Positions 10,499 through 36,514 of a stretch of DNA of 43,663 nucleotides are shown here, piece by piece. Origin of the DNA: Sphingobacteriales bacterium. GTDB taxonomy: Bacteria; Bacteroidota; Bacteroidia; UKL13-3. The stretch is taken from assembly GCA_021298155.1 (NCBI GenBank), contig JAJTEN010000039.1, forward strand, positions 1 through 43,663. The letters run 5' to 3'. The translations under genes and the position numbers were made by a program. Position 1 is the stretch's first letter. Every line of letters starts with the position of its first letter. Under the pieces are notes generated by a model. It did no database searches. It worked only from the letters and a program-made list of their open reading frames with translations, and was not told where the DNA came from.

Positions 10499-12409
10499 TT
10501 ACCTTACTCCATGCATCATTTTCAATAATTTACGTGATAAGAAGAATAGGATTACAGAAGCTGAGCCAGCCATAACTACAAACAACATAAAGAATGAATA
10601 CAAACTATTAATTGTTACTCCCATAAAATTCTTTTCTTTCACTACAGAGTCTTTAAAAATACCCTTTACAATTTCGGCTTTTTGCGCTTTGCTCGTTACT
10701 TTATCAAAAGAGATTAAATCAATACTTACGTATTTACCTCCATTAATTTCTTCAGATTTATCTAATTTCTCGCACAAAATAATATTGTTTATACTCTGTT
10801 GCTCGGTTACAGCCTCTACCTTAATCATAGTTTCTGGATATAAAGAGCTTAACGTTCCGGCGAATTTGTTGGCCGAAGCAGTAGATAAGAACCAAACGCC
10901 CATTAATAAAGAGGCAAATTTTACAGGCGCTAATTTATTTACCATAGACAAACCAATTGGAGATAAACACAATTCTCCAAAAGTATGGATTAAGTATAAG
11001 CTAAACAGCCACATCATGCTCACTTTGGTTTCTGGCGCAATACCCTTTACACCCAATGCAATAACAACATAACCAATAGCCAATAATAGTAAGCCAATGG
11101 CTTGTTTGTAGGGAGAGGCAGGTTCCATTTTACGTGCACCTAGGAATGTCCATAGGATAGAAAATACAGGTGCAAAAATAACAATGGAAACAGCATTAAT
11201 ACTTTGGAAAAAACTAGCAGGAATAGATTCTATATCTGTACCTTCTGGAGCAATTCCCATTATTAAATAAGATAAACTAGCTATTCCGGCTACTATCAAA
11301 CCAAGGGTTAATTCTTTTACACCCTTTTGTTCATTTTTCATGGCGCCCATTACCTTAAATCCTAAGAAGGCCAATAATCCAATGAGTGATGCGTAAATAC
11401 TAGATAAAACAGTTTTTGATAAATGTAAACCTACCTCACGGTTAGTTTGCTCTTCGGCAAAGAAAGTAAGTGAAGCACCAGCTTGCTCAAAAGCCGCCCA
11501 AAAGAAGATTACGAAGAATGCCACGATATAAATTACCGCAATTCGCTCGCGGTCTTCTTTAGGTAAACTTTTATCTGAAATAATTAAACCAGGTGCAGCT
11601 ATGGATAAAGAAAAAATAAATGAACCAATAACACCTTGACCGAAATAATAAAATATGGCAAATAAAGCACCCTCTACGCCACACCAAAACATAAGTTGAT
11701 TGCCTGTAAAATCAGAGGCAGGAGTTGCATCGCTGGCCGATACATTACGCTGTGCGTTTGGCTTAGCGCCTATGGCCTCCCCTTCTGGTGTAACGATATA
11801 GTGATTTTTAAGCCAAACAAATAAAAGCGTACTTATCACCATTCCGATAGAAGCAGCTAAAAACCCATATTTAAAATCAGCCGGATTACCCGTATCTCCT
11901 AATCCACCACAAATAAGCGGCGATAAAAAAGCTCCTAGATTTATACCCATGTAAAAAATGGTAAAAGCAGAATCTATTCGCGCATCACCTTTTGGGTAAA
12001 GCTGCCCAACCATAGTTGAAATATTGGGTTTAAAGAAACCATTACCAAAAATTAACATAGCTAAACCACCCATCATTAAAAACCTAGCTAGTTCCAGTTC
12101 AGTATAAAAAGATCCACTTAAAAACATGAAAAATTGCCCAATGGCCATCATGATTCCACCAATTACAATCGACTTTCGGTTACCCCAATACCTGTCGGCC
12201 ATATACCCTCCTAACAAAGGAGTTAAATAAACCAAACCGGTATAACTACCGTAAATGTCTGAACCAATAGCTTTATCATACAAGAGGGCTTTGGTTAAAA
12301 ATAATACAAAAATGGCGCGCATACCATAATAACTGAAGCGTTCAAACATTTCAGTGATAAATAGTACATACAAACCTTTAGGATGTCCTTGTTTACTCAT
12401 TTTATTCAA
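10499..12409 (-). CDS. Proton-dependent oligopeptide transporter (POT/PTR2 family)
   Basis: A 636-residue inner-membrane proton/peptide symporter with many hydrophobic segments. The proton-coupling motif ExxER is at Glu20-Glu23-Arg24 in helix 1, and the PTR2 signature region (GGYMADRYWG) follows. It is longer than the usual 450-560 residues because of a soluble insertion near residues 510-590, between the last helices. The true start may be the Met at residue 4. The TATATTGC sequence upstream could be a promoter. No peptidase gene is adjacent, but a dipeptidyl peptidase lies about 0.9 kb away, which suits a peptide-using lifestyle. Confidence 0.92.
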   Translation of the reverse strand: MNKMSKQGHPKGLYVLFITEMFERFSYYGMRAIFVLFLTKALLYDKAIGSDIYGSYTGLVYLTPLLGGYMADRYWGNRKSIVIGGIMMAIGQFFMFLSGSFYTELELARFLMMGGLAMLIFGNGFFKPNISTMVGQLYPKGDARIDSAFTIFYMGINLGAFLSPLICGGLGDTGNPADFKYGFLAASIGMVISTLLFVWLKNHYIVTPEGEAIGAKPNAQRNVSASDATPASDFTGNQLMFWCGVEGALFAIFYYFGQGVIGSFIFSLSIAAPGLIISDKSLPKEDRERIAVIYIVAFFVIFFWAAFEQAGASLTFFAEEQTNREVGLHLSKTVLSSIYASLIGLLAFLGFKVMGAMKNEQKGVKELTLGLIVAGIASLSYLIMGIAPEGTDIESIPASFFQSINAVSIVIFAPVFSILWTFLGARKMEPASPYKQAIGLLLLAIGYVVIALGVKGIAPETKVSMMWLFSLYLIHTFGELCLSPIGLSMVNKLAPVKFASLLMGVWFLSTASANKFAGTLSSLYPETMIKVEAVTEQQSINNIILCEKLDKSEEINGGKYVSIDLISFDKVTSKAQKAEIVKGIFKDSVVKEKNFMGVTINSLYSFFMLFVVMAGSASVILFFLSRKLLKMMHGVR

Positions 12410-23094: not shown

Positions 23095-24158
23095 ATGAAT
23101 AGATTAATTTTACTCTGCTTAGCCCTTACATTCACTTCACCCATTTTCTCTCAAGAAGCAAAAAAAGAGATTAATCCAATAATACTTACTGGGGCAAACA
23201 ATGATATTAATACGGTTGCTGTGAGTCCAATCAAAACGCAAAGAATGGCAATTGCAGGATGGAATAATGAAGTGTTAATTTATAAAACTGATAGTCCGTT
23301 TCAATTGGTTCAAAAATTAAGCAATCACAGTGCCCCCATAAACAGTATAACATACAATCTCAAAGGTAACATGTTTGCTTCAGGAGGCAGCGATATGAAC
23401 GTTTTTGTGTATGATTCTATGTTTAAACTGATTTCTTTTCAACAAGATTTAACTAAAAGACATCAAACGGCAATTCACTCGCCAATATATTTGTAGCAAA
23501 CAGCGACAAACAAATTAAATTGTTGGCATTGGTAAGTGGCAAAATTGTTAGAACATTTGATGGACATACAGATATGGTCAACGCAATGGCAATTAGCGCA
23601 AACAGTTTATACCTTATCAGTGGTTCAAACGACAGAACAGCAAGAATTTGGGACCTTAAAAATTGGAAACCATTGCATGTACTTCAGGCGGATAGTTGGA
23701 AGGTAACCGCAGTTGCGTTCACAGATGATAGCAAGTATTGTGCAACGGGTTCTAATGATGGAATAGTAAAAGTATGGGATGTATTGACCGGTAAATTAAT
23801 ACATACACGCAGTTTACCAGAACTTTATATTAGAGATATTGCATTTACTAAAGATAACGCATCAATATTAATTGGAGCAAAATTAAAAGAAGGAGATCAA
23901 TTTGGCGGCAGATTAATTGAGAGCGGACTGCAACCCATGAAGCCTAAAGAATTACCTGCAGAAACAAAAACTAAAATGCAAATTTCATTAGACAGCCTAA
24001 TGGAGATCAGACCATTAACGCGTCAGGATTCTATAAAATTTAAAAGCATATTGAATCCACAAAATACGCCAAAATCTGCCTTGCCAAAATCAAATGCCAC
24101 CGATAAAGCGTTAGAGAAACCGGTGATTTATAAAACCCCCATGAAATCTGAAAAATAA
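23095..24158 (+). pseudogene. Secreted WD40-repeat protein, split by a frameshift
   Basis: The first reading frame (23095-23496) has a signal peptide (MNRLILLCLALTFTSPIFSQ) and WD40-like beta strands (FASGGSDMNVFVYD). It stops at 23494-23496. The second frame, displaced by -1, continues the same propeller without a break: upstream of its first possible start it already reads SLANIFVANSDKQIK, then RTFDGH, SGSNDRTARIWD and GSNDGIVKVWD. So this was, or is, one gene. The shift lies between about 23455 and 23494; one extra base there, for example in the A-run at 23455-23458, would restore about 355 residues. I saw no slippery heptamer, so a mutation or sequencing error is more likely than programmed frameshifting. 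The tail after about residue 280 is not WD40-like. Confidence 0.75.
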
Positions 24159-24323: not shown

Positions 24324-25760
24324 ATGAAGATTCTCAATCTGTTATCTAAATTTACCTTGCTTGTTGCGCTCGTATTTAACTTCCACTTAGACCTCTCGGC
24401 CCAGAGTGCGGAAGAAGGAAAAGCGCTTTACAACGCCAATTGTACTGCTTGTCACGCCATCAATGATAAAGTTGTTGGTCCGGCTTTAAAAGACGTTCAC
24501 AAACGTAGAGAAGAAGCTTGGTTGATAAAGTGGATTAAAAACTCTCAAGCCCTTGTTAAAAGTGGCGATCCTCAAGCTGTTCAATTGTACAAAGAAAACA
24601 ACGAAGCCTTGATGACTTCATTTGAAAACTTGAGTGAAACAGAGATAAAATCAATTATTGCCTATATCAAAACCGAAAGTGAAACACCAGCCACAGCGAC
24701 TACTGCTTCAGTTGGCGTTACACCAAGTAGTAATGATAAGGCAGACTCAAACTCAGATTGGAGTTCGGCAATCAATTGGTTGATATTTATTATTTCAATC
24801 ATTTTAATATTAATAATTTCTACCATTTCAAGAATACTTGGAAGAATAGGTGATATTCAAGGTAAACCAGTAGTTAATTGGAATAAAACAAATTCGATTT
24901 TATTACTCGCTTTCTTGATTGTTGGATTAGCTGCTGCCACTTGGGAATTTTGGGCACACAGTAAACATACCATCTTTAGTTATGGACCAGCTTCTGAGCA
25001 TGGCGGTGAATACGATAGCATGTTTATGGTAACCCTAGTATTAACTGGTATTGTTTTCGTTATAACACAAGTATTATTATTCTGGTACGGTTTTAAATAT
25101 AAGTCTGATGGCAAACGTAAAGCGCTATACTACCCAGATAACCACAAAATTGAGTTATTGTGGACAGTAATTCCTGCAATTGTATTAACTGTTTTGGTTA
25201 TTAGAGGACTTATGACTTGGAATGCCATGATGTACAATAAAAACGAAAAGGCAAGAAACATAGAAATTTATGCCTATCAGTTTGGATGGAATGCACGCTA
25301 TGCAGGAACAGACAACAAACTAGGAGCCCATAATTTCCGTGAGCAAGGTAAAATGAATGCATTGGGTGTTGATACCAATGATGTAAATGCTTATGACGAC
25401 GTTGTTACCAATGAATTACATTTAGAGGTGAATCAGCCTGTGGATTTAGCATTTAGAGCAAAAGACGTTATTCATAGTGCCTTATTGCCGCATTTCCGTG
25501 TACAAATGAATGTGGTTCCGGGTTTACCTACTAAATTTGCTTTTACACCAACTGTAACAACTGCAGAAATGAGATTAAAAATGAATAAACCAAGTTTTGA
25601 TTACATCTTATTATGTAACAAAATTTGCGGAGGAGCTCATTACAGAATGAAAATGAAAGTGGTAGTAGACACCAAAGAAGAGTATCAAAAATGGATGGCA
25701 TCTCAAAAAGTTTTGGTAAACAAAAACGCAGCAAATTCAGCTGCAGTTGCTTTAAAATAA
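24324..25760 (+). CDS. coxB: Cytochrome c oxidase subunit II with fused N-terminal cytochrome c
   Basis: The 478 residues run: signal peptide (1-27); a class I cytochrome c domain (about 28-120) with heme motif Cys40-x-x-Cys43-His44 and likely axial Met97; four hydrophobic segments between about 145 and 310; then the CuA domain. The CuA ligands are all present: His384, Cys431, Cys435, His439 and Met442. The residue between the two Cys that is Glu in classical CoxB (CxExC) is Lys here (CNKIC), so the side chain usually near the Mg/Mn site is lost. The fused cytochrome can feed electrons straight into CuA. First gene of the oxidase operon. Confidence 0.95.
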   Translation: MKILNLLSKFTLLVALVFNFHLDLSAQSAEEGKALYNANCTACHAINDKVVGPALKDVHKRREEAWLIKWIKNSQALVKSGDPQAVQLYKENNEALMTSFENLSETEIKSIIAYIKTESETPATATTASVGVTPSSNDKADSNSDWSSAINWLIFIISIILILIISTISRILGRIGDIQGKPVVNWNKTNSILLLAFLIVGLAAATWEFWAHSKHTIFSYGPASEHGGEYDSMFMVTLVLTGIVFVITQVLLFWYGFKYKSDGKRKALYYPDNHKIELLWTVIPAIVLTVLVIRGLMTWNAMMYNKNEKARNIEIYAYQFGWNARYAGTDNKLGAHNFREQGKMNALGVDTNDVNAYDDVVTNELHLEVNQPVDLAFRAKDVIHSALLPHFRVQMNVVPGLPTKFAFTPTVTTAEMRLKMNKPSFDYILLCNKICGGAHYRMKMKVVVDTKEEYQKWMASQKVLVNKNAANSAAVALK

Positions 25761-25795: not shown

Positions 25796-27637
25796 ATGAG
25801 CGATCACAACTTGACACATCACGAAGAACATGAACACCATGAAGACAACTTCATTACGAAGTATGTATTTAGCATGGATCACAAAATGATTGCCAGACAA
25901 TTCTTGATTACAGGAATTATTATGGGAACTATTGGTATGTTAATGTCACTTATTTTCCGTTTGCAGTTGGCCTATCCTGATATGAAATTTCCTTTCTTAG
26001 AAGGTATTTTAGGCCATTGGGGAAAAGATGGAAAATTAGACCCTAATTTTTACTTAGCATTAATTACAATACATGGAACTATCATGGTATTCTATGTATT
26101 AACAGCAGGTTTAAGTGGTACATTCTCTAATTTACTCATTCCATTACAGGTAGGTGCTCGAGACATGGCTTCTCCATTTATGAACATGTTGTCGTATTGG
26201 TTTTTCTTTGTTTCATCTGTAGTATTATTAGTATCACTTTTTGTAGATGGTGGTCCTGCTTCAGCAGGTTGGACGGTTTATCCACCATTATCTGCCTTGC
26301 CAAAAGCGATACCAGGTTCTGGTACAGGTATGACCCTTTGGTTAGTGGCCATGGTATTATTCATTGCATCGGCACTTTTAGGTGGTATCAATTATATCGC
26401 TACCGTATTAAATATGCGTACCAAAGGTATGAAGATGACTCGTTTACCTTTAACTATTTGGGCATTCTTGGTAACAGCCGTTTTAGGTTTATTATCATTC
26501 CCAGTATTATTGGGTGGTTCATTGTTATTAATATTTGATCGTAGTTTCGGAACATCATTCTATTTGTCTGAAATTGTGGCAGAGTTTGCAGGTGGTATAG
26601 AAAGAACAGGTGGTTCACCTATCCTATTCCAACATTTATTCTGGTTTTTGGGTCACCCTGAAGTATATATTATCCTATTACCAGCATTGGGTATAACTTC
26701 AGAAGTAATTGCTACCAATTCGCGTAAACCAATTTTTGGATATAGAGCGATGATTGGTTCAATACTAGCTATTGGTATTTTATCATTCATTGTATGGGGT
26801 CACCACATGTTTATTACTGGTATGAACCCATTCTTGGGATCAGTATTTATGTTAGGTACATTAATTATTGCTGTTCCATCTGCAGTTAAAACTTTTAACT
26901 ATTTAGCTACGCTTTGGAAAGGTAACCTACAATTAACACCTGCTATGTTGTTTGCAATTGGATTGGTTTCATTCTTTATATCGGGTGGATTAACCGGTAT
27001 TTATTTAGGAAACGCAGCGTTAGACATTAACTTACATGATACTTATTTCGTTGTAGCCCATTTCCATTTAGTAATGGGTAGCGCTGCTATTTTTGGGATG
27101 TTAAGCGGAATTTATCATTGGTATCCAAGAATGTTTGGTAGAATGATGAATGAAACTGCAGGTCATGTTCATTTTTGGTTAACCATTATTTCTGCCTACT
27201 GCGTGTTTTTCCCAATGCATTTCATGGGATTAGCAGGTGTTCCGCGCAGGTATTATGCTAACACTGCCTATGATCAGTTCAATGTTTTTGTAGACATGAA
27301 TCAGTTTATCACCATTGCAGCAATCTTAGGTGGTGCCGCTCAATTAATATTCTTAGCTAATTTCTTTATCAGCATATACAGAGGTAAGAGAGCACCTCAA
27401 AATCCTTGGAACTCTAACACATTAGAGTGGACAGCACCTGTTGAGCATTTGCATGGAAACTGGCCAGGAGAAATTCCACATGTATATCGTTGGGCTTACG
27501 ACTACAGCAAGCCGGGTGCAGAAGAAGACTTTATTCCTCAGAATATTCCTGATGCTGGACAAATAGATCCTATGCAAGAGGCAGAAGGATTGCCTGAACC
27601 AAGCAGAAAAACAGTTACAGAAACTGTAATGGCTTAA
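25796..27637 (+). CDS. coxA: Cytochrome c oxidase subunit I
   Basis: The catalytic subunit, 613 residues with about 12 membrane helices. It carries heme a, heme a3 and CuB and pumps protons. Visible residues are the low-spin heme His in TIHGTIMVF, the CuB His with the cross-linked Tyr in GHPEVY, the His pair in GHHMF, and the helix X ligands in HDTYFVVAHFH. The Glu in HPEVY points to an A1-type enzyme with a D-channel. The first 18 residues are rich in His and Glu (THHEEHEHHED), a possible metal-binding tail. It lies 35 bases after coxB. A 12-base perfect hairpin follows its stop codon. Confidence 0.97.
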   Translation: MSDHNLTHHEEHEHHEDNFITKYVFSMDHKMIARQFLITGIIMGTIGMLMSLIFRLQLAYPDMKFPFLEGILGHWGKDGKLDPNFYLALITIHGTIMVFYVLTAGLSGTFSNLLIPLQVGARDMASPFMNMLSYWFFFVSSVVLLVSLFVDGGPASAGWTVYPPLSALPKAIPGSGTGMTLWLVAMVLFIASALLGGINYIATVLNMRTKGMKMTRLPLTIWAFLVTAVLGLLSFPVLLGGSLLLIFDRSFGTSFYLSEIVAEFAGGIERTGGSPILFQHLFWFLGHPEVYIILLPALGITSEVIATNSRKPIFGYRAMIGSILAIGILSFIVWGHHMFITGMNPFLGSVFMLGTLIIAVPSAVKTFNYLATLWKGNLQLTPAMLFAIGLVSFFISGGLTGIYLGNAALDINLHDTYFVVAHFHLVMGSAAIFGMLSGIYHWYPRMFGRMMNETAGHVHFWLTIISAYCVFFPMHFMGLAGVPRRYYANTAYDQFNVFVDMNQFITIAAILGGAAQLIFLANFFISIYRGKRAPQNPWNSNTLEWTAPVEHLHGNWPGEIPHVYRWAYDYSKPGAEEDFIPQNIPDAGQIDPMQEAEGLPEPSRKTVTETVMA

Positions 27638-27687: not shown

Positions 27688-28659
27688 GTGATTGAATTAA
27701 AAAAACAAATCAGATTTAGACGCTTTGGAATATTAACTATTGCGTCTGTGTTCTTTCTCATATTTATAGGTGGATTGGTGCGGAGTACTGGAAGTGGAAT
27801 GGGGTGCCCAGATTGGCCAAAGTGTTTTGGACAATGGATACCGCCATCAGACATTAGTGAATTGCCACTTGATTACAAAACCAAGTTTGCTGTGGCTGGT
27901 AAAGAAATTGCGGATTTTGATGCTTTTAAAACATGGACAGAATATTACAATCGTTTAATTGGAGTTGTAATTGGACTATTTGTGTTTCTAACTGTAATTT
28001 TCGCACTTCCTTATTTAAAAAGCACAAACAAAAAAATATTTTGGCTAAGTTTTCTAGCTTTTATATTGGTAGGTTTTCAGGGTTGGATTGGGTCTATTGT
28101 AGTGTCGACTGATTTGGCAACATATATGATAACCATTCATATGCTCATTGCCTTAATCATAGTTGCTTTGCTCATTTATACCGTTTCAGCGAGTCAGGAT
28201 TTTGTGATTTACCAAATTAATCCATTTCCTGGATTAAAAACACTTATATGGGTGCTTTTAATAATTGCCATAGTGCAAACAGTAAGTGGAACACAAGTTA
28301 GGGAAGCTATTGATGAAATTGCCAAAAGAATAGACAACAGATGGGTATGGACAGACAATGCGGGTAATATATTTTTAATGCATAGAAGTTGGAGTTGGTT
28401 CAGTTTACTTATCTCAATATACATGATGTTACAGTTTAAGAAAATTTTCTTAAGAGAGAGCATTCTGTATAAAGCATCTTTAGCGCTTGTATTGTTAATG
28501 TGCACGCAAGCATTAAGTGGAGCTGTATTGGCAAACCTTGGTTTCCCGAGTCAGTTTCAAAGTATACACCTCACATTGGGAAGTTTAACAGTAGGATTAA
28601 TTATTTTTATTTCGATTCTGGTGTTTACTAAAATTGAATTAAAATTAGAAAATAAATAG
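27688..28659 (+). CDS. ctaA: Heme A synthase, COX15/CtaA family
   Basis: It oxidises heme O to heme A for the oxidase, in the inner membrane. The 323 residues give about eight helices. The Cys pair of the first outer loop is present (Cys40-PDWPK-Cys46). Three of the four expected heme-ligand His are seen: His151 (ITIHML), His232 (LMHRSW) and His294 (SIHLTLG). The first, normally in an EYxHR motif, is Asn88 here (EYYNRL). The start is GTG at 27688. It is followed 2 bases later by ctaB. Confidence 0.9.
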   Translation: MIELKKQIRFRRFGILTIASVFFLIFIGGLVRSTGSGMGCPDWPKCFGQWIPPSDISELPLDYKTKFAVAGKEIADFDAFKTWTEYYNRLIGVVIGLFVFLTVIFALPYLKSTNKKIFWLSFLAFILVGFQGWIGSIVVSTDLATYMITIHMLIALIIVALLIYTVSASQDFVIYQINPFPGLKTLIWVLLIIAIVQTVSGTQVREAIDEIAKRIDNRWVWTDNAGNIFLMHRSWSWFSLLISIYMMLQFKKIFLRESILYKASLALVLLMCTQALSGAVLANLGFPSQFQSIHLTLGSLTVGLIIFISILVFTKIELKLENK

Positions 28660-28661
28660 GC

Positions 28662-29570
28662 GTGAAAGTAAAAGCTATACATACAAATAATACAACTAGA
28701 GGTCTGAGTTTTATCAGGGCTAAAGTGGGAGATTATAATCAATTGATTAAATTTCGACTCACTTTTTTAGTTGTGTTTTCTTCTGTAATTACCTACCTCA
28801 CGGCTAGTACAGGAATGATTAATTGGTTTGAAGTTTCTATGTTAACCTTGGGCGGTTTTTTGGTTACAGGGGCAAGCAATGGAATAAACCAAGTAATAGA
28901 AAAAGATTTTGATAAATTAATGATTAGGACTGCTAATCGACCGGTTGCAACTAATAGAATGGGCGCTTTTGAAGCTTCCATTTTTAGCATGCTATTAGGT
29001 ATTTCTGGCGTGCTCATTATCAGTTTATATTTAAATCCATTGTCTGGTTGGTTAGCATTAGGTGCACTTATTAGTTACGCCTTTATTTACACACCATTAA
29101 AGCGAATTTCTCCTGTTTCTGTTTTTGTGGGTGCATTTCCAGGTGCTATCCCTACCTTGTTGGGTTGGGTTGCATTTACCGGTAAAATAGATGCCAACGC
29201 ATTAATTGTTTTTGGCGTTCAATTTTTTTGGCAGTTCCCACATTTTTGGAGCATTGCTTGGATCCTAGACGATGATTACAAACGAGCTGGATTTAAGATG
29301 TTACCCTCTACACCTGGCAGAGATAAAGGAACAGGCTTTCAAACATTAATTTTCAGCTTAGCCTTAATTCCAATTGGCATGTTGCCCTACCAATACGGAA
29401 TTAGCGGTGGAATATCTGCCATTGTAGGAATACTTGGTGGCCTAATGCTAACATATTATTCATACAGGTTGTTTAAAACATGTGAGACCGCAGATGCTAA
29501 AAAACTTATGTTTGCATCTTTTATATATTTACCTTTGGTTCAATTAGCTTATTTATTTGATAAAATTTAA
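28662..29570 (+). CDS. ctaB: Protoheme IX farnesyltransferase (heme O synthase)
   Basis: It adds a farnesyl group to heme B, giving heme O, the substrate of CtaA. The 302 residues show the UbiA fold, with the first Asp-rich motif around NQVIEKDFDKLMIRTANRP (about residues 74-92) and the second region at DDDYKRAGFKMLP. Several membrane helices are clear. The start is GTG, 2 bases after ctaA. The stop codon is followed after 1 base by the ATG of the next gene, so the run is translationally tight. Confidence 0.95.
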   Translation: MKVKAIHTNNTTRGLSFIRAKVGDYNQLIKFRLTFLVVFSSVITYLTASTGMINWFEVSMLTLGGFLVTGASNGINQVIEKDFDKLMIRTANRPVATNRMGAFEASIFSMLLGISGVLIISLYLNPLSGWLALGALISYAFIYTPLKRISPVSVFVGAFPGAIPTLLGWVAFTGKIDANALIVFGVQFFWQFPHFWSIAWILDDDYKRAGFKMLPSTPGRDKGTGFQTLIFSLALIPIGMLPYQYGISGGISAIVGILGGLMLTYYSYRLFKTCETADAKKLMFASFIYLPLVQLAYLFDKI

Positions 29571-29571
29571 C

Positions 29572-30153
29572 ATGAAAGACACTACACTAAATAACATCGA
29601 AGATGCTAATTATATTATTAATCCAAAGAAATTTGTACTTTGGTTATTAATTGTTGCGAGCATCATGCTTTTTGCCGGATTTACCAGTGCCTATATTGTT
29701 AGACGTGGTGAAGGAAATTGGGAAATTTTTAATTTACCCTCTCTTTTTGCTGTAAATACGGTTTTTATTATTTTATCCTCTATTACCATGCAATTGTCTG
29801 TATGGGCGTTAAAAAAGAATCATTTAACGCAAGTAAAACGCTTTTTGGGATTAACCTTAGCATTGGGCTTAGCCTTCTGTATTGGTCAATTCTATGCTTG
29901 GGGTCAACTTACAGCAGATAATGTATTCTTTGCTTTCTCAAATCCTTCAAATTCGTTTGTATATGTAATTTCAGGCGTGCATTTATTCCATGTAATTGGT
30001 GGTGTACTTTTCGTTTTGATCCAATTTATTCAATCTTTGAGAGGAAAAATACAAAGTCATTTACCGTTGTATACAGGCATGTGTGCAACCTATTGGCATT
30101 TCATAGGTATTCTTTGGATATACCTTTATATATTTTTATATTTATACAGATAA
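29572..30153 (+). CDS. Cytochrome c oxidase subunit III-like protein (first copy)
   Basis: About 193 residues with five hydrophobic helices. Subunit III features include GFTSAYIVRR near the start, the conserved GVHLFHVIGG segment and the final YWHFIGILWIYLY. The ATG at 29572 is preferred over an upstream TTG (29557) that would overlap ctaB. Bacteroidota oxidase loci often carry two subunit III-like genes in a row, as here. This copy lacks the first two helices of long subunit III and probably sits beside CoxA in the complex. Confidence 0.88.
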   Translation: MKDTTLNNIEDANYIINPKKFVLWLLIVASIMLFAGFTSAYIVRRGEGNWEIFNLPSLFAVNTVFIILSSITMQLSVWALKKNHLTQVKRFLGLTLALGLAFCIGQFYAWGQLTADNVFFAFSNPSNSFVYVISGVHLFHVIGGVLFVLIQFIQSLRGKIQSHLPLYTGMCATYWHFIGILWIYLYIFLYLYR

Positions 30154-30184: not shown

Positions 30185-30937
30185 ATGGCTACTAACACTT
30201 TAAGTACAGAAAACAAGTTTACATGGGGAGGCGGTAAATCGCCGTTTAGTGTAAGCTACGGAAAGTTAATGATGTGGATCTTCTTACTTTCTGATGCATT
30301 TACATTTTCATCGTTGTTAATTGCATACGGATTTATCCGCTATTCATTTCAATCACCTATTCACAATGAAATTGTTAAACCATTAGCGCATGTAGCAGAT
30401 AATTTTGTTGAACAAATGCAGCAAGCCGGTTTATTTTTACAAGACCATTGGCCTTCTCCAGAATTGGTGTTCAATCATTTTCCTTTTGTTCATGGTGTTC
30501 ACTTACCATTATTCTTTGTGAGTTTAATGACATTTATTTTGATTTTTAGCTCTGTAACTATGGTATTAGCCGTAGAAGCCGGACATAGAATGGCAAAAGA
30601 CGAGGTAGCAAAATACATGCTGTTAACCATTATTGGCGGTGCCGCATTCTTAGGATGCCAGGCATGGGAATGGACAACATTTATTGGTGAAGGTGCTAGA
30701 TTATATGAAAACCCTTATGGACCAAGATCATTTGCAGCTCTTTTCTTTATTGTAACAGGCTTTCACGGAATGCACGTATTCTCTGGTGTAGTATTAAATG
30801 TAATCATTTACTTGAACGTATTGAATAATACCTATGAAAAAAGAGGTCACTATGAAATGGTAGAAAAAGTTGGATTATATTGGCACTTTGTTGATTTAGT
30901 TTGGGTATTCGTATTTACCTTCTATTACCTCATTTGA
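30185..30937 (+). CDS. coxC: Cytochrome c oxidase subunit III (second copy)
   Basis: A 250-residue subunit III with several helices. Family segments include KLMMWIFLLSDAFTF, the Glu-containing CQAWEWTTFI, GFHGMHVFSG and the C-terminal YWHFVDLVWVFVF. It has a long polar stretch between helices 1 and 2 (about residues 55-100), which makes it larger than the first copy. It lies 31 bases after that copy. Subunit III stabilises proton uptake by subunit I and does not bind metals. Confidence 0.92.
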   Translation: MATNTLSTENKFTWGGGKSPFSVSYGKLMMWIFLLSDAFTFSSLLIAYGFIRYSFQSPIHNEIVKPLAHVADNFVEQMQQAGLFLQDHWPSPELVFNHFPFVHGVHLPLFFVSLMTFILIFSSVTMVLAVEAGHRMAKDEVAKYMLLTIIGGAAFLGCQAWEWTTFIGEGARLYENPYGPRSFAALFFIVTGFHGMHVFSGVVLNVIIYLNVLNNTYEKRGHYEMVEKVGLYWHFVDLVWVFVFTFYYLI

Positions 30938-30974: not shown

Positions 30975-31307
30975 ATGGAACACACAGAACATTTAGAGCA
31001 TACTGAAACGCCTAAAGACATGAAAAGCCAAATTTGGAAAACATTTTGGATTTTGTTTGCCTTTACCATCGTGGATATCATATTATATTTCATTTTATTG
31101 TCTAACCACTCCATGATGAAAAATTGGGTATTTATTATCCTTGGAGTAGTAAAAGCCTATTATATTGTTGGTATTTTCATGCACATGAAATTTGAACGCA
31201 AATCATTAATGTACATGATTGTAATTCCAATGGTTTTTGTTGTTTTTTTAGTTGCCCTAATGATTATTGAGGGTGATTTTACAGGTTTACTTAGGTGGAT
31301 TAAATAA
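30975..31307 (+). CDS. Cytochrome c oxidase subunit IV-like protein
   Basis: A 110-residue protein with three hydrophobic helices that matches the prokaryotic COX4 type (WKTFWILFAFTIVDIILYF, then GVVKAYYIVGIFMHMKFE). The start carries a His/Glu-rich tail (MEHTEHLEHTE) similar in style to that of CoxA. The stop codon overlaps the ATG of the SCO gene by one base (TAATG), a sign of translational coupling. Confidence 0.88.
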   Translation: MEHTEHLEHTETPKDMKSQIWKTFWILFAFTIVDIILYFILLSNHSMMKNWVFIILGVVKAYYIVGIFMHMKFERKSLMYMIVIPMVFVVFLVALMIIEGDFTGLLRWIK

Positions 31308-31960
31308 TGAAAAGAAAAGGATTTTGGATAGCAACCGGACTACTTGTAGTGCCGGTTGTTATTTTTTATATGCTTAGTGCCGGAAGTCATAATTTTACAA
31401 CGCTTCCTATTTATGGTGAGCGAATACCTCCAGATGGCAATACTCAAAAAGATACCATTTACTATCAAATACCTAATTTTGAGGTAACAGATCAATCAGG
31501 CAAACAATTAAATTTACAGAGTTTTGATGATAAAATTTTTGTTGCCAACTTTTTCTTTGCATCCTGCGAAGATGTTTGTCCTACGATGAACCGCAGACTT
31601 GCAAAAATATATGAGAAGTATAAAGAATTTGCTGAAATCCATTTTTTAAGCTTCACAGTAGATCCCATGAACGACAGCGTTCCTGTTTTAGCAGAATACG
31701 CCAAACATTATAATGCAGATGCTAATATTTGGCATTTTGCTAAAGCAAACTCCAATGAGGATATCTTTAAAATTGGACAAGGATTTTTATTGCCTGTATC
31801 AAAAGAAGATAAAACAATAGACCACAGTCAGCAGTTAATAATAATAGACAAAGAAAAAAGAATTAGAGGCGTTTATGATAGCTTCAGCGATGTAGAATTA
31901 AAACGCTTAGAAGAAGATTTAAAAGTACTTTTATATGAATACCACCACCCAGGAAAGTAA
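31307..31960 (+). CDS. SCO1/SenC-family copper chaperone
   Basis: It delivers copper to CuA or reduces its cysteines. A membrane anchor covers residues 7-24, and a thioredoxin fold follows. The copper-binding motif is Cys87-x-x-x-Cys91 (CEDVCP) and the third ligand is His173 (IDHSQQ). All three are present. The 217 residues are normal. The gene overlaps the previous one by 1 base and the next by 26 bases. Confidence 0.94.
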   Translation: MKRKGFWIATGLLVVPVVIFYMLSAGSHNFTTLPIYGERIPPDGNTQKDTIYYQIPNFEVTDQSGKQLNLQSFDDKIFVANFFFASCEDVCPTMNRRLAKIYEKYKEFAEIHFLSFTVDPMNDSVPVLAEYAKHYNADANIWHFAKANSNEDIFKIGQGFLLPVSKEDKTIDHSQQLIIIDKEKRIRGVYDSFSDVELKRLEEDLKVLLYEYHHPGK

Positions 31961-32486
31961 AGACAAGTTGTTTTTTAGAATTGCAATCAGTATTTCGCTT
32001 GTAGTACTCATTGCTGTAATTGTATTAAACAGAAAAATATTACCCGTTCCAAGTGAACTACCATCATGGACCTATTTCTTACCTAAGTTAAACGCAATAA
32101 TCAATGCAACTTGCAGCATCTTATTGATTTGGTCTTTGTTTGAAATTAAAAAGCGGAACATTCAAAAACATAAGTTAATTAATTTAAGCACCTTCGCATT
32201 AAGTAGCATTTTCTTAATAAGCTATGTTTTATATCATTGGATGGCTCCGGAAACCACTTACCCAGCTGATAGTCCTGCAAGACCATTCTATCTAGCCTTA
32301 CTAGGAAGCCATATCATTCTTGCGGCAATTGTATTACCACTCATTTTAATTAGTTTTTATAGAGGTTTACAAATGCAAGTAGAACTGCATAAAAGCATTG
32401 TACGTTTTGCGTATCCAATATGGTTGTATGTGACCATCACTGGGGTTATCGTATATTTAATGATTAGTCCATATTACCCACATTAA
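31935..32486 (+). CDS. DUF420 (CtaM/YozB-like) oxidase assembly protein
   Basis: A 183-residue membrane protein with about five helices. Family features include LPKLNAIINATCS, YHWMAPET and the C-terminal YPIWLYVTITGVIVYL. DUF420 proteins (YozB; CtaM in Staphylococcus) are needed for maturation of heme A-containing oxidase. The ATG lies 26 bases inside the SCO gene, so the two are probably coupled. Confidence 0.87.
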   Translation: MNTTTQESKDKLFFRIAISISLVVLIAVIVLNRKILPVPSELPSWTYFLPKLNAIINATCSILLIWSLFEIKKRNIQKHKLINLSTFALSSIFLISYVLYHWMAPETTYPADSPARPFYLALLGSHIILAAIVLPLILISFYRGLQMQVELHKSIVRFAYPIWLYVTITGVIVYLMISPYYPH

Positions 32487-32491
32487 TTAGA

Positions 32492-32764
32492 ATGAAAAAA
32501 GAATTATTGGTTTTAATCATTTTGGTTATCGTTTGTTTTATCCCCAACCATGAAACAATGGCTCAATGTGCGATGTGTAAAAGCAACTTAGAAATGGCTA
32601 GAGAGGGAGGTGGAACCAATGTAGGGAACACCCTCAACAACGGGATCATGTACTTATTGGTTTTACCCTATGCGATTGCAGCTGTATTTGGATTTATCTA
32701 TTATAAAAAATATAAAGGTAAAAAAGCGGCTGAACAAAAATTAAATCCTACAACTCACTCTTAA
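32492..32764 (+). CDS. Small membrane protein with periplasmic CxxCK motif, role unknown
   Basis: Only 90 residues. A signal-like helix (about 3-23) ends in TMAQ, and directly after it comes Cys26-Ala-Met-Cys29-Lys30. A second helix lies at about 52-72 (IMYLLVLPYAIAAVFGF), then a basic tail. The likely mature form is a short periplasmic loop with a CxxC next to its N-terminus, held by one helix. The gene lies 5 bases after DUF420 and 14 before DUF983, in the middle of the assembly genes. I recall similar unnamed proteins in other Bacteroidota oxidase loci but know no function. A copper or thiol role is inference; heme attachment is less likely, since the motif ends in Lys. Confidence 0.78.
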   Translation: MKKELLVLIILVIVCFIPNHETMAQCAMCKSNLEMAREGGGTNVGNTLNNGIMYLLVLPYAIAAVFGFIYYKKYKGKKAAEQKLNPTTHS

Positions 32765-32778
32765 AAACCAACTCACTC

Positions 32779-33177
32779 ATGTGCGATACTTACGAAGCTT
32801 CCAAAACGCTTTCGATTATTAAATCAAAATGCCCGCAATGCCAGAGCGGCAAAATGTTTAACTATCCATTTTACAATCTTAAAAAATTTATGGAGATGGA
32901 TAGTCATTGCAAAGTATGTGGGTTAAAATATGAAATAGAACCTGGATTTTTTTGGGGAGCAATGTATGTAAGTTACGCATTAACGGTAGGTTTAATGCTA
33001 GTACTTGGGGGATTTATCTTTTGGATTAGTGCAGGCAAAGCAAGTTTTTGGGGATATACCATACCCATTGTTAGCAGCTTAATTCTCTCCTCTCCGCTTA
33101 CCTTCAGGTATGCACGTGTTTTAATGCTTTATTTGTTTTCACCTGTTAGGTTTAATCCAGATTTAGCCAAAAAATAA
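32779..33177 (+). CDS. DUF983-family membrane protein
   Basis: A 132-residue protein with two CxxC pairs that can form a zinc ribbon (Cys18-x-x-Cys21 and Cys44-x-x-Cys47), followed by two hydrophobic helices (about 60-82 and 92-112). This layout matches DUF983, which is often found near oxidase genes. The function is not known. It is followed 2 bases later by the DCC gene. Confidence 0.88.
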   Translation: MCDTYEASKTLSIIKSKCPQCQSGKMFNYPFYNLKKFMEMDSHCKVCGLKYEIEPGFFWGAMYVSYALTVGLMLVLGGFIFWISAGKASFWGYTIPIVSSLILSSPLTFRYARVLMLYLFSPVRFNPDLAKK

Positions 33178-33179
33178 TT

Positions 33180-33578
33180 ATGCAACAACCCATCTTATTT
33201 TACGATGGCAACTGTGCATTATGCAACAATTTTGTTTCTATGATTCTAAAAATTGGCACAAAACCAAACTTCTATTTTGCGCCATTAACAGGTAGTACCG
33301 CCCAAAAATTACTACCTGATCTCTATAAGCAAACAGATTTTGATGCTATTGTTGTATGGAAAGAGGGTAAATTTTATACGCACCACGAAGCGGTTTTTCA
33401 AATAATACAGGCAATGCCCATTGGCTTTAAGGTTTTGCTTTTTCTAAGATTTTTACCTCATTCCGTTTTACTTAAACTCTATACCTATGTGGCAAAAAAC
33501 AGATTTCGTTGGAAACCAAAATTAGAAGTATGTCCCATGCCGCCTGCCAAATTTAAGCATCAATTTATTTTTGATTAA
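33180..33578 (+). CDS. DCC-family thiol-disulfide oxidoreductase (DUF393)
   Basis: A 132-residue protein with the family motif YDGNCALC (Asp9, Cys12, Cys15) near its start. Other family segments are FAPLTGSTAQ, DAIVVWKEG and RFLPHSVL. The DxxCxxC motif suggests thiol chemistry, but no substrate is known. Tight spacing with DUF983 links it to the oxidase run, and the receptor gene starts 18 bases later. Confidence 0.88.
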   Translation: MQQPILFYDGNCALCNNFVSMILKIGTKPNFYFAPLTGSTAQKLLPDLYKQTDFDAIVVWKEGKFYTHHEAVFQIIQAMPIGFKVLLFLRFLPHSVLLKLYTYVAKNRFRWKPKLEVCPMPPAKFKHQFIFD

Positions 33579-33596: not shown

Positions 33597-35786
33597 ATGC
33601 GCTATTGGTTTAGAATTTATCTCCTATTTGTTTGTTTAAAAAGTACATTTGCCTTTGCGCAAGAGCTAGATAGTGTCAATTTTTCTATGAACGAGTTGAT
33701 TATTTCAGCAGATAAATTTCAAGAAAAAAGAAAAGATATTCCGCGCCAAATCGATATAATAAATCAGAAAACCATACAGCAACTCAACAAACAAAATATG
33801 GGTGATTTATTGTTTGAGGCAAGCAATGTGTATTTGCAGAAAAGTCAGCAAGGCGGTGGGAGTCCGATAATACGCGGGTTTGAAGCGAACAAAATACTCA
33901 TGGTATTAGACGGAGTTCGCTTAAACAATGCCATTTATAGAGGCGGACATTTACAAAACGTATTGCGAATAGAACAGAATATTATTGAACGAGTTGAAGT
34001 GTTGCATGGCCCAGGATCTTTATTATATGGTTCAGATGCCTTAGGCGGAGTATTAAATTTTGTAACCATTAAACCAAGTTTAGATAAGCCAATTCAAGTA
34101 TATGTCATGAATAGGAACAGCAGTGTAAATCAAGAAAAAACACAACTTATCACACTGCAAGCTGCGTATAAAAAATTGGGCGTATTATTTCATTATTCTC
34201 AATCAGATTTTGGCGATTTAATGCAAGGAAAAAAGAGGAATAATGCAATTGGTGAGTTGGGTTTGCGTCCATTTTTTCAAGACAGATATGGAGATTCAGA
34301 CCGAATAGTAACTAATCCAAACCCACATAAACAGGTTGGTTCAGCCTACAGGCAACACAATATTCTTACTAAATGGCGCTATAAACCCAAAGCCTATTCG
34401 GAGCACCTTCTATCCTATTATTATACCACAACAGGTAACATTCCAAGATACGACAGACTAAGTGAGATCGCATCAGGTAAACCGCTATTTGCAGAATGGT
34501 ATTATGGACCAGAAACATTTCATTTTTTACATTATCAATTTAACCATTCCCTTATTCGTACCTTTTGGGATGAATTGAAATTGAATATCTCTTTACAACA
34601 AGTGGAAGAAAGCAGGAATACCCGAAATTTTGGTAATTCCTGGCTGAACCAAAGACAAGAAAAAGTAGCTGTTTTTGCCATGCATTCCGATTTCAAAAAA
34701 CGAATCAAACGAAATGAAATAAGATATGGATTGGAGTACCTTTTGAATCAGGTTAACTCAACGGCATCTGCCTTTAATTTGCTTACAAATGCCAGGCAAG
34801 CAATAAGCACGCGTTACCCAGATGGTGGTTCGCTAGTTTATTCTTTGGGCGCTTACCTCACAATGAGCCAAGAAATCGGTAAAAAATGGGTGTTTACAGA
34901 AGGAATTAGAGTGAATTACAATAGTTTATCTGCCAGATTTTCCAGCAAACAATTTTATTCCTTTTTGCCTAACAAAATACAACAAAGCTATAAACCCGTA
35001 TCGGCTAATGTTGGACTCGTATATATGCCCAATGCAAAACTAAGATTATACGCGAACATAGGTAATGCGTATAGGGTTCCAAATGTAGACGACTTGGGCA
35101 AATTATTTGATTCTAGGCCAGGTAATATTTTAATTGTACCAAACAATTATTTAAAGGCAGAGCAAACTATAACCTATGAGCTTGGCATAGAGAAACGATT
35201 TAATAATAAGTTACTCATAGCTGCAAACGCTTTTTATACGGGGGCTTGGAATACCTTAATCATTAAACAGGTAGGTTCAGACAGTATCTTATATGACAAT
35301 ATACTAACACCTGTTTTTACTACTCAAAATGCACAACGTGCTCGAATTATAGGATATCATGTGCAAGTTAACTTTATAGTAAACAAATATTGGAAGATGG
35401 AGGCCAACTTAAACCAAAGTTTAGGAACTATTTTTAGCGATAGTATAATGCCATTAGATCATATCCCTCCTCTTTACGGACGCTTGGCAATTCACTATTC
35501 GAACAAAAGGTGGCAAGCCAGCCTCCAAAGCCAATTTAGCGATGCAAAGCATAGAAGTAAATATTATTTAAACGGAGAAGATAATATTGAATATGCTACA
35601 GCAAACGGACTACCCGCATGGTATATAATATCCACAAATGTAGGATATTCATTTTTTAAGAACCAAGCATTACATTTAAGGACGGGAATAGAAAACATAT
35701 TAGATAGAAACTATCGAACTTTTGCTAGTGGAATAAGCGCACCAGGAAGGAATTTTTATTTAAGCTTAGCTTACCAATTAAATTAG
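33597..35786 (+). CDS. TonB-dependent outer-membrane receptor (heme/hemoprotein-receptor-like)
   Basis: A 729-residue TonB-dependent receptor with a signal peptide (1-21, ending FAFAQ). The plug domain (about 45-160) has GGGSPIIRGFEANKI, LDGVRLNNA and the closing VEVLHGPGSLLYGSDALGG. The barrel follows and ends in an aromatic-rich strand (FYLSLAYQLN). The plug wording resembles receptors of the hemoglobin/heme group (HmuR-like). Placed right after the oxidase genes, it may supply heme iron, but the substrate is not proven. A TATTTTGC sequence 6 bases before the ATG may be a promoter, so it could be its own unit. Its stop overlaps the ZIP gene's stop from the opposite strand. Confidence 0.9.
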   Translation: MRYWFRIYLLFVCLKSTFAFAQELDSVNFSMNELIISADKFQEKRKDIPRQIDIINQKTIQQLNKQNMGDLLFEASNVYLQKSQQGGGSPIIRGFEANKILMVLDGVRLNNAIYRGGHLQNVLRIEQNIIERVEVLHGPGSLLYGSDALGGVLNFVTIKPSLDKPIQVYVMNRNSSVNQEKTQLITLQAAYKKLGVLFHYSQSDFGDLMQGKKRNNAIGELGLRPFFQDRYGDSDRIVTNPNPHKQVGSAYRQHNILTKWRYKPKAYSEHLLSYYYTTTGNIPRYDRLSEIASGKPLFAEWYYGPETFHFLHYQFNHSLIRTFWDELKLNISLQQVEESRNTRNFGNSWLNQRQEKVAVFAMHSDFKKRIKRNEIRYGLEYLLNQVNSTASAFNLLTNARQAISTRYPDGGSLVYSLGAYLTMSQEIGKKWVFTEGIRVNYNSLSARFSSKQFYSFLPNKIQQSYKPVSANVGLVYMPNAKLRLYANIGNAYRVPNVDDLGKLFDSRPGNILIVPNNYLKAEQTITYELGIEKRFNNKLLIAANAFYTGAWNTLIIKQVGSDSILYDNILTPVFTTQNAQRARIIGYHVQVNFIVNKYWKMEANLNQSLGTIFSDSIMPLDHIPPLYGRLAIHYSNKRWQASLQSQFSDAKHRSKYYLNGEDNIEYATANGLPAWYIISTNVGYSFFKNQALHLRTGIENILDRNYRTFASGISAPGRNFYLSLAYQLN

Positions 35787-36514
35787 TGATGAAATCCAAT
35801 ACTTATGGCTGCGGCGATTCCAATACCAAGTAATACAGCAAACAATTTTTGTTTACTAAAATGATGTTGTTCGCTATTTTCAAACAAAATGGTTGTTGAA
35901 ATATGTAAGAAGGTGCCAATAACAAATGCCATAAAATACTCGAAAAATTCTTCGTTTATACTGGATTTTAAATACACACTCATACCCGCGCCTAGCAGAG
36001 CCATTGAACCATATACCAAACTAATATTTCTGAGGGCAAAACCAGAGAGATGAATTCCCTTTAAAATACTTAATAGGGCAAAAGCCGCTGGAATTTCATG
36101 AATAATAATTCCAAATAAAAGGGAGTAAAAGTTAGGGTTCTGATTTACCCATTGGGCCCCTAACGGAAAACCCTCGGTAAAAGAATGCAAACTTAAAGAG
36201 GCCACAATACCAATTGGAATTACCTTATTTTTTAAATGATGGTGCACATGCATGTGTCCGTGCTCTATACCTTCAGAATAACGTTCTAAGAATATTTGAA
36301 AAAAGAATCCCAACAATACCAGTAAACCCTTATATGGATCAAAATGTTGAAACACCTCAGGAATTAAATTAAGCAAAGTAATACCCAATAAATATGCACC
36401 GGCAAAGGCTAAAAACCAATTCAGTTCTTTGGCGTATTTTTTTACACTTTTTATTGCTAAAAAGCTTCCTAAAAGCGGACCAATAGGCAATAATAAAAAC
36501 CACCAAACACTCAT
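35783..36514 (-). CDS. ZIP-family metal transporter
   Basis: A 243-residue inner-membrane carrier for Zn2+, Fe2+ or similar ions, with about eight helices. The metal-site motifs are His110-Ser-x-x-Glu114 (HSFTEG) and His139-Glu140-Ile-Pro (HEIPAAF). A His-rich loop (85-93, HGHMHVHHH) sits between helices. The ATG overlaps the stop of the PAP2 gene by 4 bases (ATGA). The metal cannot be assigned. Confidence 0.92.
   Translation of the reverse strand: MSVWWFLLLPIGPLLGSFLAIKSVKKYAKELNWFLAFAGAYLLGITLLNLIPEVFQHFDPYKGLLVLLGFFFQIFLERYSEGIEHGHMHVHHHLKNKVIPIGIVASLSLHSFTEGFPLGAQWVNQNPNFYSLLFGIIIHEIPAAFALLSILKGIHLSGFALRNISLVYGSMALLGAGMSVYLKSSINEEFFEYFMAFVIGTFLHISTTILFENSEQHHFSKQKLFAVLLGIGIAAAISIGFHH

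Follow-up and report, generated by a model that had tools for sequence, protein, structure and literature searches.

The window, which is the whole 43,663-nucleotide stretch of DNA that was analyzed, contains on its forward strand a run of genes in the order coxB, coxA, ctaA, ctaB, two COX3-type genes, subunit IV, SCO, DUF420, a gene for a small protein with a CxxC motif (the CxxC protein), DUF983 and DCC, and this operon is of the caa3 oxidase type. The first gene encodes CoxB (24324..25760), a subunit II with an N-terminal cytochrome c domain and the CuA ligands; its matches to PF00034 and PF02790 were above cut-off, and those to PF00116 and TIGR02866 (107 bits) were each below their cut-offs. 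It is followed by the genes of CoxA, an aa3-type subunit I (25796..27637; PF00115, 8.1e-141 in the genome search), the heme A synthase CtaA (27688..28659; PF02628, 4.9e-46), the heme O synthase CtaB (28662..29570; TIGR01473 above cut-off), two COX3-type subunits III (29557..30153 and 30185..30937; PF00510, 6.2e-09 and 1.9e-15, respectively), subunit IV (COX4_pro, 30975..31307; PF03626, 3.1e-13) and the SCO1/SenC copper protein (31307..31960; PF02630, 1.9e-20). The CxxC gene (32492..32764) is the tenth of the run and lies directly between the gene of a DUF420, CtaM-like protein (31935..32486; PF04238, 6.8e-41) and that of a DUF983 protein (32779..33177; PF06170, 7.2e-07), with 5 bases from the DUF420 stop (32486) to its ATG and 14 bases from its stop to the DUF983 start. 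A further 2 bases separate DUF983 from the gene of a DCC1-like thiol-disulfide oxidoreductase family protein (33180..33578; PF04134, 6.5e-20); all of these genes are on the plus strand. The original prediction had placed the small protein 5 bases after DUF420, just before DUF983 and DCC, which the coordinates confirm, and had described its neighbors as genes that act in oxidase assembly or accompany it; Pfam confirms their identities for CtaA, CtaB, COX3-type, COX4_pro, SCO1-SenC, DUF420, DUF983 and DCC1-like. At the edges of the run, a WD40-repeat gene at 23095-24158 is split over two frames (23095-23496 and 23520-24158), possibly by a frameshift or an assembly error. A TonB-dependent receptor gene (33597-36514) follows DCC, here and in several loci of the genus, and a ZIP metal transporter gene is convergent to it; these genes may be connected with the supply of metal.

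The CxxC gene encodes 90 amino acids, with the ATG at 32492 and the stop ending at 32764. The protein consists of a basic start, a hydrophobic stretch, the residues A-Q, the motif C-A-M-C-K, a polar linker rich in Gly and Asn, a C-terminal hydrophobic segment that begins NNGIMYLLVLPY, and a lysine-rich tail. The codons of Q25-C26-A27-M28-C29-K30, which hold the invariant CxxC and its flanks, were read from the sequence at 32564..32581. The open reading frame with a signal-like helix, CAMCK and one C-terminal helix was thus found as had been described. The A-Q step fits the cleavage pattern of signal peptidase, and the composition of the protein together with the conservation of this step predicts a signal peptide whose removal would place the motif at the mature N-terminus. 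The AlphaFold model of the single sequence was uninformative: it contains nothing but helices, its confidence is low (mean pLDDT 60), and no globular fold is predicted. The CxxC protein had no Pfam match at E up to 1 and no credible relative in Pfam, NCBIfam or the PDB. Its homologs likewise gave nothing credible in these databases, only scattered weak matches; in the Pfam scan of 39 homologs, 25 of the 29 families found were among the matches listed. Searches of the sequenced PDB chains by phmmer and with profiles gave a best E of 0.28, to unrelated chains. Promoter-like and terminator-like sites were near the shuffled background, and no copy was found on viral contigs. The family is new and unnamed, while the kind it belongs to, the accessory factors of heme-copper oxidases, is known. 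A literature search found no paper naming the protein; most subscription journals were outside this search, which does not establish its absence from print.

In the panel of the 60 nearest genomes, from the class Bacteroidia and with the window's own genome included, the gene was found in 56, with one copy per genome. The two cysteines are intact in all 56 copies, in agreement with the expectation that the motif would be conserved. The residues between them are AM in 29 copies, PM in 11, SM in eight, TM in four and others in four, so that Met is present inside the motif in 52 of 56. The predicted cleavage step reads AQ in 49, SQ in three, GQ in one and QG in three. Apart from M1, the residues Q25, C26, C29, N49, Y54 and P59 are invariant in a 39-row alignment of the class, with I52, L55 and Y60 kept in at least 90% of rows, while in a 26-row alignment that includes other classes only the two cysteines are invariant, the start Met apart. 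Hence, the second motif singled out by the original prediction, GI-x-YL-x-x-PY, holds within the class but not across classes. Among 17 members of the genus the median dN/dS of the gene was 0.19, as obtained from the 63 of 136 pairs with a computable dS; synonymous sites were almost saturated (median pS 0.75). These data confirm that the open reading frame is a real conserved gene, beyond chance. The four genomes of this panel in which it was missed (G007, G017, G053 and G056) all have no DUF420 match. Two of them, G007 and G017, are explained by assembly breaks, with oxidase contigs that stop within the first COX3 gene. G056 has only cbb3-like COX1 genes (23% identity to the CoxA of the window), and G053, which is 84% complete, has an aa3-type CoxA without DUF420 and without the CxxC gene.

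The residue after the motif bears on whether the protein could be a tiny c-type cytochrome that carries heme on CxxCK, the motif that binds the catalytic heme of NrfA. Lys follows the motif in 44 of the 56 class members, and a multiheme protein, ActA, is encoded next to the CxxC gene in 29 of 30 loci from other classes. On the other hand, Arg (10), Ala (1) or Gln (1) replaces this Lys in the remaining 12 of 56, and Ser, Thr, Gln, Phe or Tyr does so in some members of other classes. There is also no conserved second heme ligand, because 37 of 56 class members have no further Cys or His after the motif. The heme reading was rejected on these residue counts, and we consider it very improbable.

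Around the 56 copies, DUF420 is located just upstream in 38 and DUF983 just downstream in 35; both adjoin in 26 copies, DUF420 only in 12, DUF983 only in nine and neither in nine. SCO is encoded within 1.5 kb upstream of 36 copies, and DCC downstream of 20. Among the 18 copies away from DUF420, 17 genomes were tested (all but G058) and all 17 carry DUF420. In G044 and G050 it shares the contig of the CxxC gene and precedes it by 5-6 kb, and in the others it is elsewhere in the genome. By eye, no other partner recurs broadly beside the unlinked copies, although a partner is common to both loci in each of three pairs (L032/L035, L054/L056 and L060/L062). DUF983 and the DCC1-like gene (PF06170 and PF04134) stay with the CxxC gene away from the oxidase locus, DUF983 doing so without DUF420 in the nine copies above; no sequence relation of either to the CxxC protein was found. 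An earlier paper reports the presence of DUF983 in COX operons and compares it with COX4 (PMC4013037).

The wider survey covered a phylum panel of 247 genomes, 61 of the class and 186 others. The class profile matched 71 of them and a wider 26-row profile 82, of which the 77 with E below 1e-4 were counted as positive. Left out were five matches to the 26-row profile with E from 1e-4 to 0.01 (G174, G270, G272, G291 and G295) and the weak matches to the class profile (G137, G164, G218 and G258), while the divergent copies of G063 (CPVCF) and G223 (CPLCQ) were included. The gene is thus present in 56 of 61 class genomes and in 21 of 186 others. COX2 was matched in 184 of the 247 genomes and DUF420 in 125. 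DUF420 is present in every one of the 77 CxxC-positive genomes, and 76 of these have a COX2 match, the remaining one (G108) having an aa3-type COX1. The CxxC gene is absent from all 60 genomes that have COX2 without DUF420. The co-occurrence with DUF420 gave a Fisher p of 5.5e-31, which ignores kinship and is descriptive only. No CxxC copy was detectable in 48 of the 125 DUF420 genomes, which shows that CtaM can work without the CxxC protein. In 55 of the 77 (44 of 56 in the class and 11 of 21 outside it), a DUF420 domain match is found at most 275 bases upstream of the gene and in the same orientation. The five class genomes without it, which are also without COX2 and DUF420, belong to two families, three to f21 and two to f32 (f21, f32, f35, f40, f41, f43 and f48 are anonymous family labels). 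No COX1 match at all was found in the two f32 genomes, and the only COX1 genes of the three f21 genomes have frames of 755-785 residues, as in cbb3 fusions; this frame length, together with the 23% identity of the G056 COX1, suggests that the f21 oxidases are cbb3-like.

The original prediction had raised the question of whether homologs would always be next to coxAB, SCO or DUF420. This did not hold, as DUF420 does not immediately precede the gene in 18 of 56 and 22 of 77 cases. The homologs are nevertheless not mostly away from oxidase genes, since DUF420 is directly upstream in 38 of 56 and 55 of 77 copies and present in all 77 genomes. The suggestion that the protein could be a common but unstudied factor of Bacteroidota also fits, and the family extends beyond the class.

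These data are best explained if the CxxC protein is an accessory factor for the assembly of the CuA-bearing cytochrome oxidase of the heme-a type, a reading to which we give a probability of roughly 0.55. The earlier proposal of a role in oxidase assembly gains support from the operon position SCO-DUF420-CxxC, seen in Bacteroidia and, in another arrangement, in other classes, and from the distribution of the gene, with DUF420 in 77 of 77 positives and CxxC in none of 60 genomes that have COX2 without DUF420. It is also consistent with the absence of the gene from three class genomes that have only cbb3-like COX1 and no COX2 match, one of which was read. The Met inside the motif in 52 of 56 class members speaks for it as well. 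Against it stand the loss of this Met from most members of other classes, the 48 DUF420 genomes without a detectable copy and the nine of 56 class copies that adjoin neither DUF420 nor DUF983. DUF420/CtaM (PF04238) shares both the operon and the genomes of the CxxC protein, and presumably its pathway. According to the part of the source available, CtaM is essential and is required late in the assembly of the oxidase, perhaps at CuB, with no function assigned to it there, and it has four or five membrane segments (PMC9145763). It is a partner of the CxxC protein rather than a relative. It has also been proposed that CtaM exports copper, which SCO then takes up (PMC13344008, available part).

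The chemistry of the CxxC protein would be that of copper or of thiols, either as a Cu(I) relay or as a dithiol reductant working with CtaM and SCO. Removal of the predicted signal peptide would leave QCxxC at the outer face on a finished protein of about 65 residues, oriented with its N-terminus out and a usually basic tail inside. About 33 residues separate the motif from the conserved PY, which would mark the outer start of the single helix. Together with CtaM and SCO, a reduced dithiol on such a short tether could act at the periplasmic face, and it could take over Cu(I), or donate two electrons, so that copper is placed in the CuA or the CuB site. The Cu(I) relay is our first choice over the reductant. 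Two cysteines on a short tail with no predicted globular fold are unlike a typical metallochaperone or oxidoreductase, which counts against such a role.

SCO, TlpA and ResA have a thioredoxin fold. The CxxC protein is similar to SCO1/SenC (PF02630) and TlpA/ResA in its extracytoplasmic cysteine pair, which in those proteins acts on CuA (PMC9145763, in part), but it has about 65 mature residues without a predicted fold and without a sequence match. PF02630, PF00578 and PF08534 had no match in the CxxC protein of the window, and none of them was among the matches listed (25 of 29 families) for the homologs. The similarity to Cox11_CtaG (PF04442), the copper chaperone of the CuB site, consists in the small size, the single membrane anchor and the cysteine pair on the outer side (Cox11 as described in the available part of PMC9145763). 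The two differ in that Cox11_CtaG has CxC in a larger domain behind an N-terminal anchor, while the CxxC protein has CxxC, in 56 of 56 copies, at the predicted mature N-terminus and its anchor at the C-terminus. PF04442 likewise had no match in the window protein, and was not among the matches listed (25 of 29 families) for the 39 homologs.

The relatives from other classes that are encoded in oxidase operons mostly have CPxC in place of CAMC, and the Met of CxMC is missing from most of them; the residue after the motif is Ser, Thr, Gln, Phe or Tyr in some. A comparison of the mature parts of the two main branches by hhalign scored 56.7, while 60 shuffles reached 30.5 at most; for the part after CxxC the two values were 40.9 and 13.3. 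Three sequences outside both alignments matched the profiles of both branches. These comparisons support the view that the two branches are probably one family. The features that define it were found in its members, namely CxxC immediately after a signal-like helix, a single C-terminal helix and the presence of DUF420 in the genome. A scan of named genomes with four sequences from other classes gave 30 loci, labeled as Ignavibacteria (13), Kapaibacterium (8), Bacteroidetes/Bacteroidota (4), Melioribacter (1), unnamed bacteria (2), Bradyrhizobiaceae (1; a metagenome bin with a doubtful label) and Pirellulaceae (1). These loci are not an independent sample, because they were chosen by similarity and some contigs are shared with genomes of the panel. 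In 29 of the 30 the CxxC gene is directly before that of ActA of alternative complex III, following SCO-DUF420 in 21 and SCO in eight, while the Pirellulaceae copy (L169, Planctomycetota), a single homolog, stands alone.

Single-helix small subunits are common in oxidase and alternative complex III complexes, and the position before ActA in 29 of 30 loci could mean that the CxxC protein stays in the oxidase, or in its supercomplex with alternative complex III, as a small permanent subunit, in which the cysteines would form a structural disulfide or an interchain metal site. Among sequenced PDB chains, none of the modelled subunits matches the CxxC protein. However, the PDB has no close relative of the CoxA of the window (best 418 bits for 613 aa), so that it is weak evidence that solved structures do not include the CxxC protein. 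The map of the R. marinus alternative complex III also contains one unassigned periplasmic density, as reported in the available part of PMC5928083. On the other hand, ActB of the Kapabacteria type does find alternative complex III structures in the PDB, and no sequenced chain there matches the CxxC family. The loci L120 and L139 have ActA-D, DUF420 and coxAB but no CxxC copy, and the class copies are behind assembly genes or alone, although the gene that precedes them in f41 and f48 is that of subunit IV. A subunit is less likely than an assembly factor because the gene tracks DUF420 and the assembly genes rather than alternative complex III and has no copy in L120 and L139, and we regard this explanation as possible but rather unlikely.

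CPxC resembles redox motifs. The CPxC variants outside the class would fit a dithiol reductant acting on CoxB, whose CuA cysteines it would hold in the reduced state, or likewise on SCO, a task similar to that of TlpA/ResA without the thioredoxin fold. TlpA performs this task in Bradyrhizobium (available part of PMC9145763). The presence of a CuA motif in the CoxB beside the CxxC gene in every locus read, and of the DCC thiol family gene downstream of 20 of 56 class copies, is also consistent with such a task. Less consistent with it are the lack of a predicted globular fold, the prevalence of CxMC rather than CPxC in Bacteroidia, and the fact that the strictest partner, DUF420, has no known thiol function. 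Such a dithiol reductant is improbable in our estimate, and an assembly factor that relays Cu(I) is preferred.

The copper site served by such an assembly factor could be CuA or CuB. Assembly of aa3-type oxidases has been best worked out for Proteobacteria, Bacillus and mitochondria (PMC9145763, in part). Copper in the medium rescues Sco mutants but not mutants of CuB factors (PMC9145763). The search for the two known CuB factors, whose controls (Caulobacter; B. subtilis and C. glutamicum) gave matches, found Cox11 and Caa3_CtaG in none of 41 CxxC-positive class genomes. Among 68 other genomes of the phylum Cox11 was found in two (G075 and G128) and Caa3_CtaG over cut-off in none; these 68 included 17 positives, with which we grouped G110, whose similar CPTCY protein has no match to the 26-row profile and which is a negative in the 247-genome panel. 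In all 109 genomes tested, Cox11_CtaG was therefore found only in G075 and G128, and Caa3_CtaG over cut-off in none. Complementarity, in which COX2 genomes without CxxC would carry Cox11 or Caa3_CtaG, was rejected: each was over cut-off in none of 51 such genomes, picked by hand across families from 108 (22 of the 51 with DUF420), and one weak partial match was seen in G188. Since all 51 CxxC-less genomes are also without both chaperones, this absence is a trait of the phylum and gives no specific support for a replacement. G075 and G128, which belong to one genus, have two oxidase operons each, one with Cox11 and without CxxC and the other with CxxC and without Cox11. This split hints at the replacement of a CuB factor, although the contrast is not clean because the Cox11 operon also shows no SCO.

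The subunit II of the Melioribacter cc(o/b)o3 oxidase is not known to have CuA. The CuA ligand motif was present in all 40 rows of the first CoxB set, including L120 and L139, which are without the CxxC gene, and in eight of 10 rows of the second set, of which L184 and L185 are from operons without the CxxC gene; the other two rows are detached cytochrome c pieces, encoded next to a CoxB that has CuA. A CxxC gene beside a CuA-less CoxB was looked for and not found, the motif being present in the CoxB of every CxxC-bearing locus read. The cc(o/b)o3 oxidase of Melioribacter is described in the available part of PMC5492636. A role at CuA therefore fits as well as one at CuB, while the CuA of L120 and L139 shows that the link to CuA is not specific. 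The CuA motif of the window CoxB reads CNKICG, with Lys where most CoxB proteins of other classes have Glu (CAELCG); this Lys was seen in nine of nine loci read from the same family and in one of three other loci of the class.

A bolder proposal is that the CxxC protein takes the place of the missing factor for CuB loading in heme-a oxidases of the Bacteroidota type, with a minimal unfolded dithiol tail on one helix that would receive Cu(I) from CtaM and replace Cox11 or Caa3_CtaG; in our estimate it is unlikely. Nearly all genomes of the phylum tested are without the known CuB factors, and how CuB is loaded there is a question for which a 90-residue protein tied to CtaM at genome level provides a concrete gene; it may also help to settle the function of CtaM.

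Several more divergent proteins are encoded at oxidase loci. In G267 and G223, oxidase operons of a second kind have a gene for a CPLCQ variant as their last gene, and a CPVCF variant is located just before coxB in G063; these likely belong to the CxxC family, with a weaker case than the two main branches. Single-helix CPLCQ proteins are encoded at the end of a CuA oxidase operon of a second kind, without adjoining SCO or DUF420, in L186 (10778-10999) and L187 (556-864), and they are probably distant relatives. Just before coxB in L121 (starting at 11495, minus strand) and L124 (starting at 3579, plus strand), from the families f35 and f40, there are single-helix proteins with CPVCFGD and CPTCYGD, which perhaps form a more remote branch.
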